From: Hyunsoonleella ulvae
GTDB lineage: Bacteria; Bacteroidota; Bacteroidia; Flavobacteriales; Flavobacteriaceae
Direction of reading: 5' to 3'
DNA: 64,000 nucleotides
Assembly: GCF_016827605.1 (NCBI RefSeq)
Contig: NZ_JAEPJQ010000001.1
Span: forward strand, 496,001 to 560,000
This document shows, piece by piece, positions 28,466 through 34,069 of this stretch (position 1 is the stretch's first letter; each line of letters starts with the position of its first letter). The notes beneath the pieces were generated by a model. It saw only the letters and a list, made by a program, of their open reading frames with translations, was not told where the DNA came from and made no database searches. Both the position numbers and the translations under genes were made by a program.

Positions 28466-29023
28466 TTATTGTTTACCTACCCAAGGGTTATACCTCTCTC
28501 TTAATTCTTTTTCTAAGTTAGTTATTATGAATTGAATTATCGGTTTATCTAAATCATCAATATTCTTATTTGTGATTTCAAAATAACTTACATAAACATC
28601 AACAAATTGTAGGAGGTATTTTTGATGTTTCAACTTTAAACTATACGTACTACTGTTAGTTTTCAGAAAACAATGTTCTTTTATTCTTGATGTTAATTTT
28701 TCGGATTTCCCAATATAAAAATAAAACTCTTTATCTACATCATTCCTTTTTTCAAATCTTTTAAGTGATATGTTTGGAACTTTTCTTGGAAGTTGTGTTG
28801 ATTTCCATTGCTTTTGGAATTCAATAGGACAGAACCCCTCTTTTCTTTTAATACGGAAAAGATATATTCCATATTCAAGGTGGTTAGGAAGTCCATGCAC
28901 AAAATTTTTATCAAAATTAACTTTACAAAAATTTTTAGAAAGTTCTGTTTGAGCCTTTACTAATAAACTTGGAAGCATCTTTTGCCAATTCGTAGAGGTA
29001 CTTTCCAAAAAATTTTCAATCAT
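28466..29023 (-). CDS. GIY-YIG nuclease-like protein
   Basis: The 185-residue protein has GIY at 52-54 and, after an unusually long spacer, YIG at 103-105 (FYFYIGKSEKLTSRIKEH). Arg113 and His117 follow at plausible catalytic spacing, and an E-x2-LRERYNPWVGKQ ending resembles the Glu/Asn end of GIY-YIG domains. That supports a GIY-YIG fold with an insertion, but it is a tentative assignment. It lies between rsmA and DUF4286, three bases from the latter, in a slot where Flavobacteria often have no gene, so it may be an acquired accessory gene. A DUF559 nuclease domain lies in leuS just upstream. Confidence 0.55.
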   Translation of the reverse strand: MIENFLESTSTNWQKMLPSLLVKAQTELSKNFCKVNFDKNFVHGLPNHLEYGIYLFRIKRKEGFCPIEFQKQWKSTQLPRKVPNISLKRFEKRNDVDKEFYFYIGKSEKLTSRIKEHCFLKTNSSTYSLKLKHQKYLLQFVDVYVSYFEITNKNIDDLDKPIIQFIITNLEKELRERYNPWVGKQ

Positions 29024-29026
29024 AAT

Positions 29027-29353
29027 TTACGTGAAATTCACAGTATACTCATCTATAATTTGAAGCTCGGTTCTAAATGCCAACATTTTATCGGCAAACT
29101 TTTTTAAGCCCTCTTGTCGTAATCTATCAGCATCCTCACGATAATAAGCATCTAAAGCCTCTCTTGAATAACTATGGTATTGAATGGAATAGGTTACACC
29201 ACCCATATCTTCCTCTACTAATACTCTGGTTAAGGTAGCCTTTTCAAACTTACCTGTTCCCAAAACTTGTGGAATATGTTCTTTAATCCATTTTAACCAT
29301 TCGTCATGGATAGATGCGTCTATGTTTGCTGTAACGTTGTAAATAAACTTCAT
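29027..29353 (-). CDS. DUF4286 family protein
   Basis: The 108-residue protein begins MKFIYNVTANIDASIHDEWLKW and has the compact ferredoxin-like pattern of DUF4286 (TYSIQYHSYSREALDAYYRE), resembling small antibiotic-monooxygenase-type or dimeric alpha-beta barrel proteins. No function is established. It starts two bases after leuS and is followed by the GIY-YIG-like gene; the leuS-DUF4286-rsmA order is common in Bacteroidota. Confidence 0.85.
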   Translation of the reverse strand: MKFIYNVTANIDASIHDEWLKWIKEHIPQVLGTGKFEKATLTRVLVEEDMGGVTYSIQYHSYSREALDAYYREDADRLRQEGLKKFADKMLAFRTELQIIDEYTVNFT

Positions 29354-29355
29354 GA

Positions 29356-32300
29356 TTACCCGACAATATTTACAATTTTACCAGGAACAACAATTACTTT
29401 TTTAGGTGTTCTACCCTGTAATTGGTCTTGGGTTTTTTCGTTTGCTAAAACTGCCTTTTCAATCTCATCTTTACTCATATCCATGGGTAACTCCATGGTA
29501 AAACGCATTTTCCCATTGAAGGAAATAGGATAGTTTTTACTACGCTCTACCAAATATTTCTCTTCAAATTTTGGGAATGGTGCTGTTGAAATGGACTCAC
29601 TATTTCCTAATTTTTCCCAAAGCTCTTCAGCAATATGCGGCGCATAAGGTGAGATTAAAATCAATAACGGCTCTAAAATGGCTTTTGAAGTACACTTTTG
29701 TTTTGTTAACTCATTTACTGCAATCATAAAGGTTGATACTGATGTGTTGAATGAAAAATTCTCAATATCTTCCTGAACCTTTTTGATGGTTTTATGTAAA
29801 GTCTTGAAGGCCTCCCCTAACCCCTCCGAAGGAGGGGAACTCTCACTCGAAAGGTAAAAACTTCCATTTTCGCCTTGGTGGTACAGTTTCCATAATTTTT
29901 TCAAAAAAGAATGTACACCAGTAATACCAGCAGTATTCCAAGGTTTGTATTGCTCTAACGGGCCTAAGAACATTTCGTAAAGACGAAGACTGTCTGCACC
30001 GTAATCTGCAACAATATCGTCTGGATTTACGACGTTGTATTTTGATTTGGACATTTTTTCGACTTCACGAGAAACTTTAAAAGTTCCATCTTCTTCAGTT
30101 ATAAACTCGGCATCTTTAAACTCTTCTCTCCAATTCTTAAAAGATTCAATATCAAGTTCGTCAGATGAGTTAATAAATGAAACATCTGCATGAATTTTTG
30201 TTTTACCAAAAATCACTTCAGGAATACTTTTATCTTGAATATATTTATCAAAAACTTCTCGAAGCTTTGACATGTATGTTTCAACTCTAAACTCCTCTTG
30301 TCCTTCAATACCCTCTTCATATAAATAAGCAGAAATAAAAACTTGAGGGACTTTATCATTATTGTGATTCAATCTGTACACAAAAGCACTAGTCCCTAAA
30401 ATCATCCCTTGGTTAATCAGCTTTTTAGCATATTCATCCGTAGGTACTAACCCTTTATCAAACAAGAATTTTTGCCAAAAACGAGAGTATAGTAAATGCC
30501 CGGTGGCATGTTCGCTACCGCCAATGTATAAATCTACATCTTGCCAATAGTCAAGCGCTGCTGCACTTGCAAATGCATCTGGATTGTTAGCATCCATATA
30601 ACGATTAAAATACCACGAACTTCCTGCCCACCCAGGCATGGTATTTAGCTCTAGAGCCCCACCTAACCTCCCCAAAGGGGAGGAATTCTCAAACTCCTCT
30701 TTAGAAACTATTTCTGCTTTGTCTCCATACTGTAACCAATGCCACTTTTTAGCATTACCTAATGGTGGTTCGCCAGTTTCTGTTGGTAAATACTTATCTA
30801 CCTCAGGCAATTCTAATGGTAAAAATTGCTCATCTATCATCTGTGGCAACCCATGCGCATCGTAATACACAGGAAATGGCTCTCCCCAGTAACGCTGTCT
30901 TGAAAATACAGCGTCTCGTAAACGATAGTTTGTGGTTCCTTTACCCTGCCCTATTTTTTCAAGTTCGTAAATAGCACGTTTAGTTGCTTTTTTGTAGTTC
31001 AATCCGTTTAGGAAATCACTATTAGCTATGATGGTTTTTTCTTTATCTGCAAAAGCTTCCTCAGAAATATCTACACCATCAAAAATATTTGGAATAGGAA
31101 TATTAAAATGTTTCGCAAAATCATAATCGCGTTGGTCTCCACAAGGCACACTCATAACTGCACCTGTACCGTATCCTGCCAATACATAATCACCTATCCA
31201 AATTGGGATGGGCACTTTAGTAAACGGATGCTCCGCATAGGCTCCCGTAAACGCTCCAGTAATAGTTTTTACATCTGCCATTCTATCGCGTTCACTTCGT
31301 TTTGCGGTTGCTTCAATATAAGCTTCAACCTCAGCTTTTTGTTCTGGAGTTGTTATTTGCGGCACTAAATCGTGTTCTGGAGCCAAAGTCATAAAACTTA
31401 CTCCAAAAATGGTATCAGGTCTAGTAGTAAATACTGAAATTGTATCCCCTCCTAAATCCTCCCCTAAGGGAAGGACTTGCTCACTCTCACGATTTTCACT
31501 CTTGATGGATTTTCTTTGTGATAATTCTTCTTGAATTTTAGTTAAAACACGATCAATATCTCCAATAACTTCCTCATTCTTAAATCGAATAACTTTATAG
31601 CAATCATTCTCTAATCGTTCTGTTCTTATTGCATCTTCTTCAATTTGCGACTCATGTATTTTCCCGTCAACCTCAATAATCAGCTTTTTATCTAGGCAAA
31701 CAAAATCTACAATATAATCTCCTATTAAATGTTGTTGCCTGAACTTAGCATTCAATTTTTTATTTCTCAACTGTTCCCAAAGTGTAGCCTCAGCCTCAGT
31801 TGGGTTAGCACGCATTTCTTTTGCTCTTTCTAACAACAAATGAGAATTATTCCCACCTGTCATATACACTGGTTGAGTTTTAATACTTGGTTTCGCTTCC
31901 CCTGTGGGGAAGGATAGGATGGGGAATTCAACTTGCGCTCCAACCGATTTCCCTATCCAGTTACGTTGACTTTCTTTTAGCGAATCCGTCCAATCTATCT
32001 TCTCTAAACCTTGAAGCAGCCGCTCAGCATAGGCAGAAATACGCATGCTCCATTGCGTCATTTTTTTACGAATTACAGGATGTCCTCCACGTTCTGAAAC
32101 ACCATTTACAATCTCATCATTTGCTAACACCGTCCCTAGTGCTGGACACCAGTTTACTTCGGTTTCAGCTAAATACGTTAATCTATATTGTAACAAGATT
32201 TGCTGCTGTTTTTCAGAAGAAAAATCATTCCAATCTTTAGCTGCAAATATTTCAACATCATCATCACTAACAGCATTTACATTAGCGTTTCCTTCAGTTT

Positions 32301-32793
32301 TAAAAATGGCAATCAATTCTGAAATGTCTTCAGCTTTATTACTTGTATTATTATACCACGAGTTAAATAATTGGATAAAAATCCATTGCGTCCATTTATA
32401 ATAACTAGGATCAGACGTGCGCACTTCACGAGACCAATCAAAAGAAAAGCCTATTTGGTCTAACTGTCTACGATATGTTGTAATATTTTCCTTGGTGGTA
32501 ATCGCTGGATGTTGTCCTGTTTGTATAGCATATTGTTCAGCAGGTAATCCAAAAGAATCGTACCCCTGCGGGTGCAATACATTAAACCCTTGATGACGTT
32601 TGTAACGTGCATAAATATCAGAAGCAATATATCCTAACGGGTGACCAACATGCAATCCCGCACCACTTGGGTATGGGAACATATCCAAAACATAATATTT
32701 TGGTTTGTCACTATTATTTTCGGCTTTAAACGTTTGGTGTTTTGCCCAATAGTTTTGCCATTTCTTTTCAATTTCGTTGAAATCGTATGTCAT
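29356..32793 (-). CDS. leuS: Leucyl-tRNA synthetase with in-frame DUF559 nuclease insertion
   Basis: The 1145-residue class I synthetase charges tRNA-Leu. The HIGH-type motif HVGH is at 48-51 and KMSKS at about 912-916, so both active-site halves are intact. Normal homologues are about 160 residues shorter. The excess is one block at about residues 290-451, between VGAQVEF and SVFTTRPDTIFG, at the entry to the CP1 editing domain. Within it, residues about 315-430 are a DUF559 domain (PTEAEATLWEQLRNKKLNAK, Asp363, Glu374 and Asp376 in VDF...IIEVDG). Two further short in-frame insertions encoded by a palindromic repeat lie near residues 704-713 and 985-994. The frame is uninterrupted, so the enzyme is probably made and active. 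A TAAATTTG promoter box lies at 32862-32869. Confidence 0.95.
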   Translation of the reverse strand: MTYDFNEIEKKWQNYWAKHQTFKAENNSDKPKYYVLDMFPYPSGAGLHVGHPLGYIASDIYARYKRHQGFNVLHPQGYDSFGLPAEQYAIQTGQHPAITTKENITTYRRQLDQIGFSFDWSREVRTSDPSYYKWTQWIFIQLFNSWYNNTSNKAEDISELIAIFKTEGNANVNAVSDDDVEIFAAKDWNDFSSEKQQQILLQYRLTYLAETEVNWCPALGTVLANDEIVNGVSERGGHPVIRKKMTQWSMRISAYAERLLQGLEKIDWTDSLKESQRNWIGKSVGAQVEFPILSFPTGEAKPSIKTQPVYMTGGNNSHLLLERAKEMRANPTEAEATLWEQLRNKKLNAKFRQQHLIGDYIVDFVCLDKKLIIEVDGKIHESQIEEDAIRTERLENDCYKVIRFKNEEVIGDIDRVLTKIQEELSQRKSIKSENRESEQVLPLGEDLGGDTISVFTTRPDTIFGVSFMTLAPEHDLVPQITTPEQKAEVEAYIEATAKRSERDRMADVKTITGAFTGAYAEHPFTKVPIPIWIGDYVLAGYGTGAVMSVPCGDQRDYDFAKHFNIPIPNIFDGVDISEEAFADKEKTIIANSDFLNGLNYKKATKRAIYELEKIGQGKGTTNYRLRDAVFSRQRYWGEPFPVYYDAHGLPQMIDEQFLPLELPEVDKYLPTETGEPPLGNAKKWHWLQYGDKAEIVSKEEFENSSPLGRLGGALELNTMPGWAGSSWYFNRYMDANNPDAFASAAALDYWQDVDLYIGGSEHATGHLLYSRFWQKFLFDKGLVPTDEYAKKLINQGMILGTSAFVYRLNHNNDKVPQVFISAYLYEEGIEGQEEFRVETYMSKLREVFDKYIQDKSIPEVIFGKTKIHADVSFINSSDELDIESFKNWREEFKDAEFITEEDGTFKVSREVEKMSKSKYNVVNPDDIVADYGADSLRLYEMFLGPLEQYKPWNTAGITGVHSFLKKLWKLYHQGENGSFYLSSESSPPSEGLGEAFKTLHKTIKKVQEDIENFSFNTSVSTFMIAVNELTKQKCTSKAILEPLLILISPYAPHIAEELWEKLGNSESISTAPFPKFEEKYLVERSKNYPISFNGKMRFTMELPMDMSKDEIEKAVLANEKTQDQLQGRTPKKVIVVPGKIVNIVG
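29811..29840 (+). repeat. GC-rich palindromic repeat, solo copy inside leuS (3' part)
   Basis: The CCTCCCCTAACCCCTCC half is followed by GAAGGAGGGGAAC, giving a CCCCTCC/GGAGGGG hairpin plus a conserved CCTCCCCTAA arm. Read on the leuS strand it encodes SPPSEGLGEA, in frame. Same family as 30657-30684, 31446-31474, 31895-31924 and 34087-34115. Confidence 0.85.
30657..30684 (+). repeat. GC-rich palindromic repeat, solo copy inside leuS (middle)
   Basis: CCCCACCTAACCTCCCC, AAA, GGGGAGG: a CCTCCCC/GGGGAGG hairpin with the conserved CCTAA arm, same orientation as the copies at 29811 and 31446. It encodes SPLGRLGGA in the leuS frame. Confidence 0.88.
31446..31924. mobile_element. DUF559-encoding insertion bounded by inverted palindromic repeats, in frame within leuS
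   Basis: The right boundary (31446-31474) is CCCCTCCTAAATCCTCCCC, TAA, GGGAAGGA. The left boundary (31895-31924) is the same motif in inverse orientation, CTTCCCC, TGT, GGGGAAGGATAGGATGGGG. Between them lie about 420 bases encoding a DUF559 (Vsr-like PD-(D/E)XK) domain with no stop codon. The boundaries coincide with where leuS homology is interrupted. I infer a mobile or once-mobile unit. It has no splicing motifs of an intein and no intron-like features. Confidence 0.75.
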
Positions 32794-32817
32794 CGTTTTT
32801 TTAATATAATTTTCAGG

Positions 32818-32857
32818 TTACCGCTAACTGTCACTGCGCACTGCATACTGAATTAAA
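32818..32857. repeat. Short repeat-like tract in the leuS leader
   Basis: On the leuS strand it reads CAGTATGCAGTGCGCAGTGA followed by CAGTTAGCGGTAACC, a run of degenerate CAGT-type units between the promoter box and the start codon. It resembles simple repeat debris rather than a regulatory site. Confidence 0.4.
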
Positions 32858-33960: not shown

Positions 33961-34069
33961 GGGCGCCTGCCTGCCGGCAGGCAGGTTACCACAAGGGTCG
34001 GGCTTTACGTTCCAAGTCCTCGCACCTCCTGCGTCGGGCTGTGGGCTTTCCTCTGCAATCCCTAACGCG
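33961..34069 (-). repeat. Dispersed intergenic repeat, GCGTTAGGG family, copy 2
   Basis: Read on the minus strand it begins GCGTTAGGGATTGCAGAGG and ends in CGCCC. Here the AAAGCCCGACCC block is uninterrupted. The perfect palindrome CCTGCCTGCCGGCAGGCAGG (33966-33985) instead splits the terminal GGTAACGCCC. Confidence 0.8.

Follow-up and report, generated by a model that had tools for sequence, protein, structure and literature searches.

How does a nuclease domain come to reside, in frame, inside a leucyl-tRNA synthetase (LeuRS)? This question is raised by the leuS gene in a 64,000-nucleotide stretch of the Hyunsoonleella ulvae genome (positions 496,001 to 560,000 of contig NZ_JAEPJQ010000001.1; hereafter the window). 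An earlier note, made from the letters alone, had described a DUF559 nuclease domain inserted in this LeuRS between inverted copies of one palindrome, and had proposed a mobile element that is translated rather than spliced. Comparing the locus with genomes of its genus and family, and with DUF559 loci beyond them, we find that the insert is probably a copy of a nuclease element with palindromic boundaries that is, or once was, mobile.

The insert and its ends in the window leuS

The leuS gene occupies 29356..32793 of the window on the reverse strand as a single open frame of 1145 residues, recognized by Pfam and by alignment to the T. thermophilus LeuRS structure 1h3n. Along the protein, the class I synthetase matches are followed by DUF559 (PF04480) and then by the LeuRS editing domain. 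The DUF559 domain, supported by both Pfam (E 9.9e-35; 119.2 bits against a curated cut-off of 20.6) and its predicted fold, covers residues 322-424 (31522..31830, reverse strand), with the active-site stretch DFVCLDKKLIIEVDGKIH at residues 363-380 (31654..31707, reverse strand). The extra block maps between residues 236 and 243 of the T. thermophilus enzyme, directly ahead of the TTRPDT motif. The filled loop, which belongs to the editing domain and runs from NWIGKSVGA to TTRPDT, has 507 nucleotides (31429..31935, reverse strand; residues 287-455), as opposed to 48 in G132, an empty genome of the same genus. The Pfam match, the 1h3n alignment and the two loop lengths bear out the in-frame domain in a longer LeuRS that the earlier note had read, and the frame across the insert is open as it had stated.

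On the 5′ side of the gene, the insert ends in a GC-rich palindrome reading, in gene sense, CCCCATCCTATCCTTCCCCACAGGGGAAG (31896..31924), which satisfies our hairpin rule. The inverted end on the 3′ side (31446..31474) is diverged and too imperfect for that rule. The positions and opposite orientation given earlier for these edges thus stand, but not the statement that they are copies of the same palindrome, for the two have diverged. An equally good inverted match arose in 8 of 2000 shuffles and in 33 of 1986 pairs of 100-base stretches drawn at random from the window, so this pair on its own is modest evidence; the strong evidence for inverted ends comes from relatives, in which up to 42 of 42 bases match. 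Beyond the two palindromes of the earlier note, the window LeuRS translates two more: a solo in-frame palindrome in a second loop (30655..30684) and a third in-frame one of the same kind in the C-terminal part (29808..29841), encoding SSPPSEGLGEA. The second loop carries a full DUF559 element in three other loci (L235, L237 and L239). A further, intergenic palindrome of the CCTGCCGGCAGG type lies at about 33968-33985 of the window and is unlike the DUF559 ends.

An AlphaFold2 model of a 404-residue LeuRS stretch gives a picture of how the insert might be accommodated, to be taken as a guide only (mean predicted local distance difference test, pLDDT, 68; predicted template modelling score 0.51; first 60 residues poor). 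In the model, a strand over AQVEFPI leads into a low-confidence linker (pLDDT block means 32 and 39), followed by the DUF559 domain, mostly at pLDDT 83-93 with its lowest blocks at 58 and 65. Beyond the domain, another linker of low confidence (55 and 24) leads to a strand over ISVFT. Both linkers take in palindrome-encoded stretches. The insert may thus be a guest domain on two flexible tethers that replaces a hairpin turn.

Occupied and empty sites across genomes and proteins

Among 149 genomes of the family, LeuRS was matched in 147 and PF04480 in 72 (strongly in 54, counted from the match list), and DUF559 lies inside LeuRS in 14, one of them frameshifted. Forty insert-free LeuRS, chosen from genomes without DUF559 in LeuRS and hence not a measure of frequency, have a loop of 48 nucleotides in 23 cases and of 60-153 in 17, with DUF559 in none. 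Within the 12 genomes of the window's genus, the loop is full in two (G000 and G157) and without the element in seven. In two more (G149 and G156) it shows a 117-nucleotide in-frame internal deletion of the element, in which the left palindrome, the beginning of the DUF559 extension (YMTGGNNS) and the last part of the right palindrome remain. The last (G153) has one DUF559-type end beside another repeat. Empty loops are therefore present in both genus and family, and the universal presence among close relatives that the earlier note had associated with an old fixed domain was not found. A comparable picture emerges for RecG in the genus, surveyed apart from G153 (unread by the pattern) and G155 (no match): four full copies, three empty loops, one copy without a palindrome, and two loops, in G157 and in the genome of the window, with a single palindrome each.

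In relatives whose LeuRS loop lacks DUF559, this loop can hold repeats of other types, so it appears to be a general landing place, a tolerant site rather than a proven target. These unrelated repeats (L174, L175, L120, L134, L137 and L148) encode IASEAKQS or close variants in several cases and SAVEGS in others. The IASEAKQS-coding repeat looks like a repetitive extragenic palindrome (REP) of the CGTC type; the stems described in the available text of PMC3733652, which start with AT and have CCA tails, likewise look like this repeat. They seem closer to it than to the DUF559 ends, and the idea that those ends are themselves CGTC REPs was dropped.

LeuRS is only one of many hosts. We used the strong family matches (91 domain pieces, 84 of them full-length), setting aside weak, mostly Vsr-like ones, together with the automatically collected loci and 20 stretches of a longer list; the frameshifted L060 and the intein case L061 stand outside the host list. 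By Pfam-read frames, about two dozen protein families of the Bacteroidota include members with an in-frame DUF559, either internal or terminal. Internal hosts comprise LeuRS (in two different loops), a second class I synthetase, RecG, a UvrD-type helicase, HsdR, HsdM, Type ISP and Eco57I-type enzymes and other methylases, MetH, an M23 peptidase, SpoIID, an epimerase/polysaccharide enzyme, a poly(A)-polymerase-family enzyme and a DegT aminotransferase. Terminal copies, which may be read-through or true fusions, occur with HisD, GATase_5 (PurL/PurQ-type), N-formylglutamate amidohydrolase, HemD, HemF, QueG, a pyridoxal-phosphate (PLP) enzyme, guanylate kinase and RNase H. The host's Pfam domain is split into two stretches in the DegT, SpoIID, polysaccharide-synthesis and Type ISP proteins, and for DegT the alignment to 2po3 places the insert between them. 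In the second synthetase (L303), assigned by Pfam to class I only and by its motifs presumably a ValRS, the insert directly precedes TTRPET, the counterpart of the LeuRS loop; L320 is near-identical to it around the insert.

A scan of named genomes gave a similar spread. Among the best 80 of its 173 loci, with 81 domain matches, 26 lie in LeuRS, 37 are free, 13 fall in other frames longer than 230 residues, two are in the second synthetase (both initially scored as LeuRS by BLAST), one is in a Sphingobacterium LeuRS and two are in UvrD-type proteins. LeuRS carriers include Flavivirga, Mariniflexile, Confluentibacter, Flavobacterium and uncultured Algibacter and Polaribacter. Three of the named loci (L259, L262 and L264) come from the same genomes as G157, G134 and G036 and are not additional.

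Palindromes around in-protein and free copies

Across 59 in-protein copies, a set partly non-independent as it includes close relatives, a GC-rich hairpin lies within 150 nucleotides on the left in 48, within 180 on the right in 42 and on both sides in 37, whereas only 75 of 445 control windows of the same reading frames contain one (p 4e-23 and 4e-17). The two ends of an element also resemble each other in inverted orientation: the left end scores a median of 24 against the reverse complement of its own right end versus 18 against those of other host genes (n = 77), and the own pair falls within the top 5% for 31 of the 77 copies (direct orientation, 19). End-repeat scores of at least 38 were reached by 21 of these 77 and by 15 of 56 free copies. 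By eye, (A)GCCCC or ATCCCC, with a TAA-like step, can be read at the ends of the in-protein elements, and these ends differ between loci. The best inverted ends are those of L215 (42 of 42 bases) and L234 (41 of 42), two copies in one genome (G319). Since these two pair on the tree (92, quick support) and yet have different end sequences, the ends may be a property of the site, where a palindrome pair would have existed beforehand, and not of the nuclease.

The same genome has 10 palindromes related to the ends of its UvrD copy, four of which form two inverted pairs with fewer than 100 bases between them and no DUF559. One inverted pair lacking DUF559 (L354/L355) may be translated in frame within a long reading frame, and the protein upstream of the L215 copy (L350) has an additional solo in-frame palindrome reading PHPPAPSPGGEGE. 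A Y-x-T-A/G... motif upstream of in-protein DUF559 was tried as a marker and rejected, being present in 34 of 81 internal, 8 of 18 N-terminal, none of 3 C-terminal and 24 of 90 free copies.

Free DUF559 genes are framed in the same manner. Of 56 in the family (counted apart from loci L042, L060, L103 and L105), 41 have a hairpin upstream, 36 downstream and 31 on both sides; the corresponding figures for 24 control genes are three, four and none. Hairpins occur in 69 of 97 gaps adjoining DUF559 versus 6 of 41 other gaps. Some free-copy palindromes, such as that of L041, contain CGTC. Beyond the Bacteroidota, plasmid copies from cyanobacteria (three), alphaproteobacteria (six) and Deinococcus (one) have hairpins on both sides in nine of ten cases, sampled without control genes from 39 records and with three of the ten from one Sphingomonas strain; the remaining copy, from Sinorhizobium (L346), has one on a single side. 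Palindromes thus do adjoin other DUF559 genes, free and plasmid-borne, as the mobile-unit proposal had anticipated. In the Sphingomonas plasmids (L342-L344), palindrome-flanked DUF559 genes sit between operon genes: between sufB and sufC, between transhydrogenase genes and upstream of dnaG. Another locus (L080, at 2042 and 3434) has two identical tandem DUF559 copies about 1.4 kb apart, beside similar gene starts.

Particular palindromes also go with particular DUF559 clades. The palindrome ACACCCCTAAAGTCCCCTNAAGGGGACA, taken from L003 and searched with up to three mismatches, was found in 15 of the 149 family genomes, and the backward control pattern in none. It is present in 9 of 11 genomes with the matching DUF559 clade (a 10-row subclade of an 84-domain tree plus a broken copy in G044), in 5 of 43 with other strong DUF559 and in 1 of 95 without, reaching up to 27 copies per genome (G077 and G134). 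This match, together with the framing of DUF559 by palindromes in four phyla, points to the nuclease as the palindromes' partner.

Descent, alternatives and known relatives

In the 84-domain family tree (seven pieces shorter than 270 nucleotides dropped: L060 and L042 twice each, L103, L105 and L061), a group supported at 99/93 unites the LeuRS, RecG, MetH and HisD copies and excludes the free, HemD and PALP ones, and location in LeuRS requires at least two changes by starred branches, the root not being fixed. A 192-row tree of short domains, excluding those under 88 residues and genome-contig copies in frames of 231-600 residues outside the host list, groups many in-protein copies with a number of free Bacteroidales ones and is weakly resolved; among the free copies, L104 is a highly divergent DUF559. 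It is hard to explain the spread over host genes without movement at some time. At LeuRS itself, either repeated gain or one old gain with many losses may account for the copies.

We envisage a unit in which palindromic ends in inverted orientation enclose a DUF559 nuclease with the Vsr/EDxHD homing-endonuclease fold; its copies stand free between genes or lie within reading frames. The nuclease, as the likely driver, would cut at or near its cognate palindromes, and recombination or annealing repair between palindrome copies would spread the nuclease-bearing unit; the same repair could yield internal-deletion forms or leave a single palindrome. Such cutting and repair would account for the absence of visible target duplications, for the deletion forms and for the single palindromes. 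One lineage, lacking its own start and stop codons, would be expressed only as a tethered extra domain of its host protein and would persist where an in-frame landing hit a tolerant loop, in-frame survival in loops reflecting selection after the insertion event. The whole LeuRS would be made and functional. A broader reading holds DUF559 to be the autonomous nuclease of a REP-like palindrome class in several phyla, with a protein-dwelling branch, in effect a mobile gene without gene boundaries of its own, that moves between proteins, some of them essential, and leaves in-frame palindromic peptide scars; we lean slightly towards it.

Several observations weigh against a mobile DUF559 unit. No movement was observed, the element being known from sequence comparison, and by eye no target-site duplication is seen beside the 21 best-preserved in-protein ends, whose outer limits come from local alignments. 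The two ends of the window copy are weakly alike, and the LeuRS copies L058 and L059 have neither palindromes nor the active-site motif and are possibly domesticated or decaying relics. The ACACCCCTAAAGTCCCCTNAAGGGGACA pattern was derived from a member of the clade being tested; for a wider clade of 13 rows the association falls to 9 of 14 genomes versus 6 of 135 (p 1e-7), and in three of the nine genomes (G038, G044 and G083) its copies lie only beside DUF559 itself. Where DUF559 is part of a restriction enzyme or a terminal fusion, it could be a functional domain instead of a guest. A mover other than DUF559 is conceivable, HUH (Y1) transposases (PF01797, the superfamily of the REP-associated tyrosine transposases, RAYTs) being matched in 10 of the genus's 12 genomes. 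The identities of DUF559 and LeuRS correlate (Spearman 0.56 over 45 pairs without L038, L058 and L059; 0.30 over all 78), and among 40 of the 78 pairs the identity of the insert exceeds that of leuS by no more than one point. With this correlation, and with the insert hardly ever the more alike, the data do not support a recent horizontal move of the LeuRS insert from one sampled genome to another; at LeuRS, largely vertical descent accompanied by losses would fit.

Such descent is the core of one alternative, in which DUF559 entered LeuRS once in ancient times, was useful or tolerated, and thereafter underwent nothing but loss, in many lineages. Besides the correlated identities, it draws on the clustering of LeuRS copies on the DUF559 tree and on the deletion and single-palindrome remnants, which indicate that loss does occur. 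Yet the LeuRS copies do not form one clade, with HisD, UvrD, PurL-type and HsdR copies among them (many forks being weak), and about two dozen other families hold similar elements. Moreover, 11 of 13 LeuRS copies retain the active site, which a passive relic would not need. The filled states are also scattered near-randomly over a LeuRS tree of 64 rows, 17 of them filled (the two deletion forms scored as filled, the one-ended G153 as empty): they require 13 changes, at least nine by starred branches, compared with a mean of 15 for shuffled labels, about one shuffle in 10 being as low as 13. We consider such an old, fixed LeuRS domain unlikely. Also rather unlikely is that an unrelated transposase moves the palindromes, as RAYTs move REPs, with DUF559 as a passenger or frequent neighbor. 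The PF01797 matches (many weak, some broken, and RAYTs counted together with IS200 kin), the other repeats in the same LeuRS loop and the palindrome pairs with no DUF559 between them all speak for it. Against it, G154 has a full RecG element and no PF01797 match, the clade-to-palindrome match and the framing in four phyla point to DUF559 as the partner, and DUF559 is a nuclease related to a homing endonuclease.

The two other alternatives concern what the domain does in its host. A beneficial function for LeuRS or other hosts, such as editing control or a response to DNA damage, would explain why the active site is conserved in most copies, and helicase and restriction-enzyme hosts could use a nuclease; but hosts as unrelated as HemD, DegT, MetH and SpoIID, the empty or deleted sites in close relatives and the linkers modeled at low confidence, as for disorder, make it improbable. 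A spliced element, either a nuclease-bearing intein or a self-splicing intron, is the least probable of all. DUF559 is known with inteins: the accessible part of a paper on a Thermosynechococcus intein (PMC9403480) names a DUF559-containing gene of the EDxHD family, and the L061 protein, which weakly matches intein/HINT domains, has a DUF559/Vsr-like stretch (residues 505-568) that may be a spliced relative of this nuclease. In the window LeuRS, however, a Pfam scan found no intein or HINT domain, and an Rfam scan of 29300-32850 up to E 1 matched no group I or II intron family, its three unrelated matches lying far under their cut-offs. With the frame open throughout and, in a model of moderate quality, low-confidence linkers round a folded domain, the insert is apparently not spliced out, in agreement with the proposal that it is translated instead.

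The mobile palindrome-bounded element that we favor combines traits of several known systems. Structure alignment (VIA-align) places the predicted DUF559 fold close to I-Bth0305I and Vsr, and the predicted Vsr-like catalytic fold and active-site residues are traits of EDxHD homing endonucleases; together with the palindromic ends, this suits the earlier description of a palindromic element plus a homing-like nuclease. As in REP/RAYT systems, short palindromes, solo or in inverted pairs, frame a single-gene nuclease, and copies occur elsewhere without the gene; by eye, no target duplication is seen here. The gene, however, is PF04480 with a Vsr/restriction-endonuclease-like fold rather than an HUH (Y1) tyrosine transposase, REP tags are GTAG or CGTC while in-protein DUF559 ends, read by eye, are as above (with CGTC in some free copies), and one DUF559 lineage lives inside proteins. 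Like the Rickettsia palindromic elements and REPs inside genes described in the available part of PMC3733652, DUF559 palindromes are in-frame translated palindromic DNA in unrelated genes. They differ from the Rickettsia elements in being the ends of a nuclease-encoding unit. To our knowledge, the Rickettsia elements carry no nuclease.

From EDxHD homing endonucleases such as I-Bth0305I, as presented in the accessible text of PMC3943268, the LeuRS DUF559 differs in being palindrome-framed, apparently unspliced and outside any intron or intein, and from the Vsr mismatch endonuclease, as exemplified by Caulobacter VsrA in the available part of PMC12907096, in being an in-protein element with palindromic ends. 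Terminal inverted repeats are shared with classical insertion sequences, though weak in the window copy. The closest described case appears to be the ShiLan domain of a phage methylase: going by the accessible part of PMC11855218, it too is an insertion open in the host frame, unspliced as far as known and with a homing-type nuclease, but there the nuclease is an HNH enzyme in another reading frame and the setting is phages, whereas DUF559 lies in the host's own frame, in many hosts and with palindromic ends. Among open-access titles and abstract beginnings, we found no work joining DUF559 to palindromes or placing it inside LeuRS, and an earlier description is possible. Separately from the element, a small open reading frame near leuS (28466-29023, reverse strand) has a weak GIY-YIG nuclease match under the Pfam cut-off.

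The CGTC class of palindromes is reported, in the available text of PMC3733652, without a dedicated transposase. For the spread of RAYT-less palindromes, DUF559 offers a testable nuclease partner in another palindrome class; a little-studied domain, mentioned by 14 papers of the open-access text searched, thereby becomes a testable question about a genetic element. If the proposal is true, it would add a way for selfish DNA to persist in essential genes without splicing, would explain palindrome-coded low-complexity peptides in Bacteroidota proteins and would mark protein loops that tolerate whole extra domains. The comparisons suggest a kind of mobile element whose survival depends on its translation within the proteins of its host.
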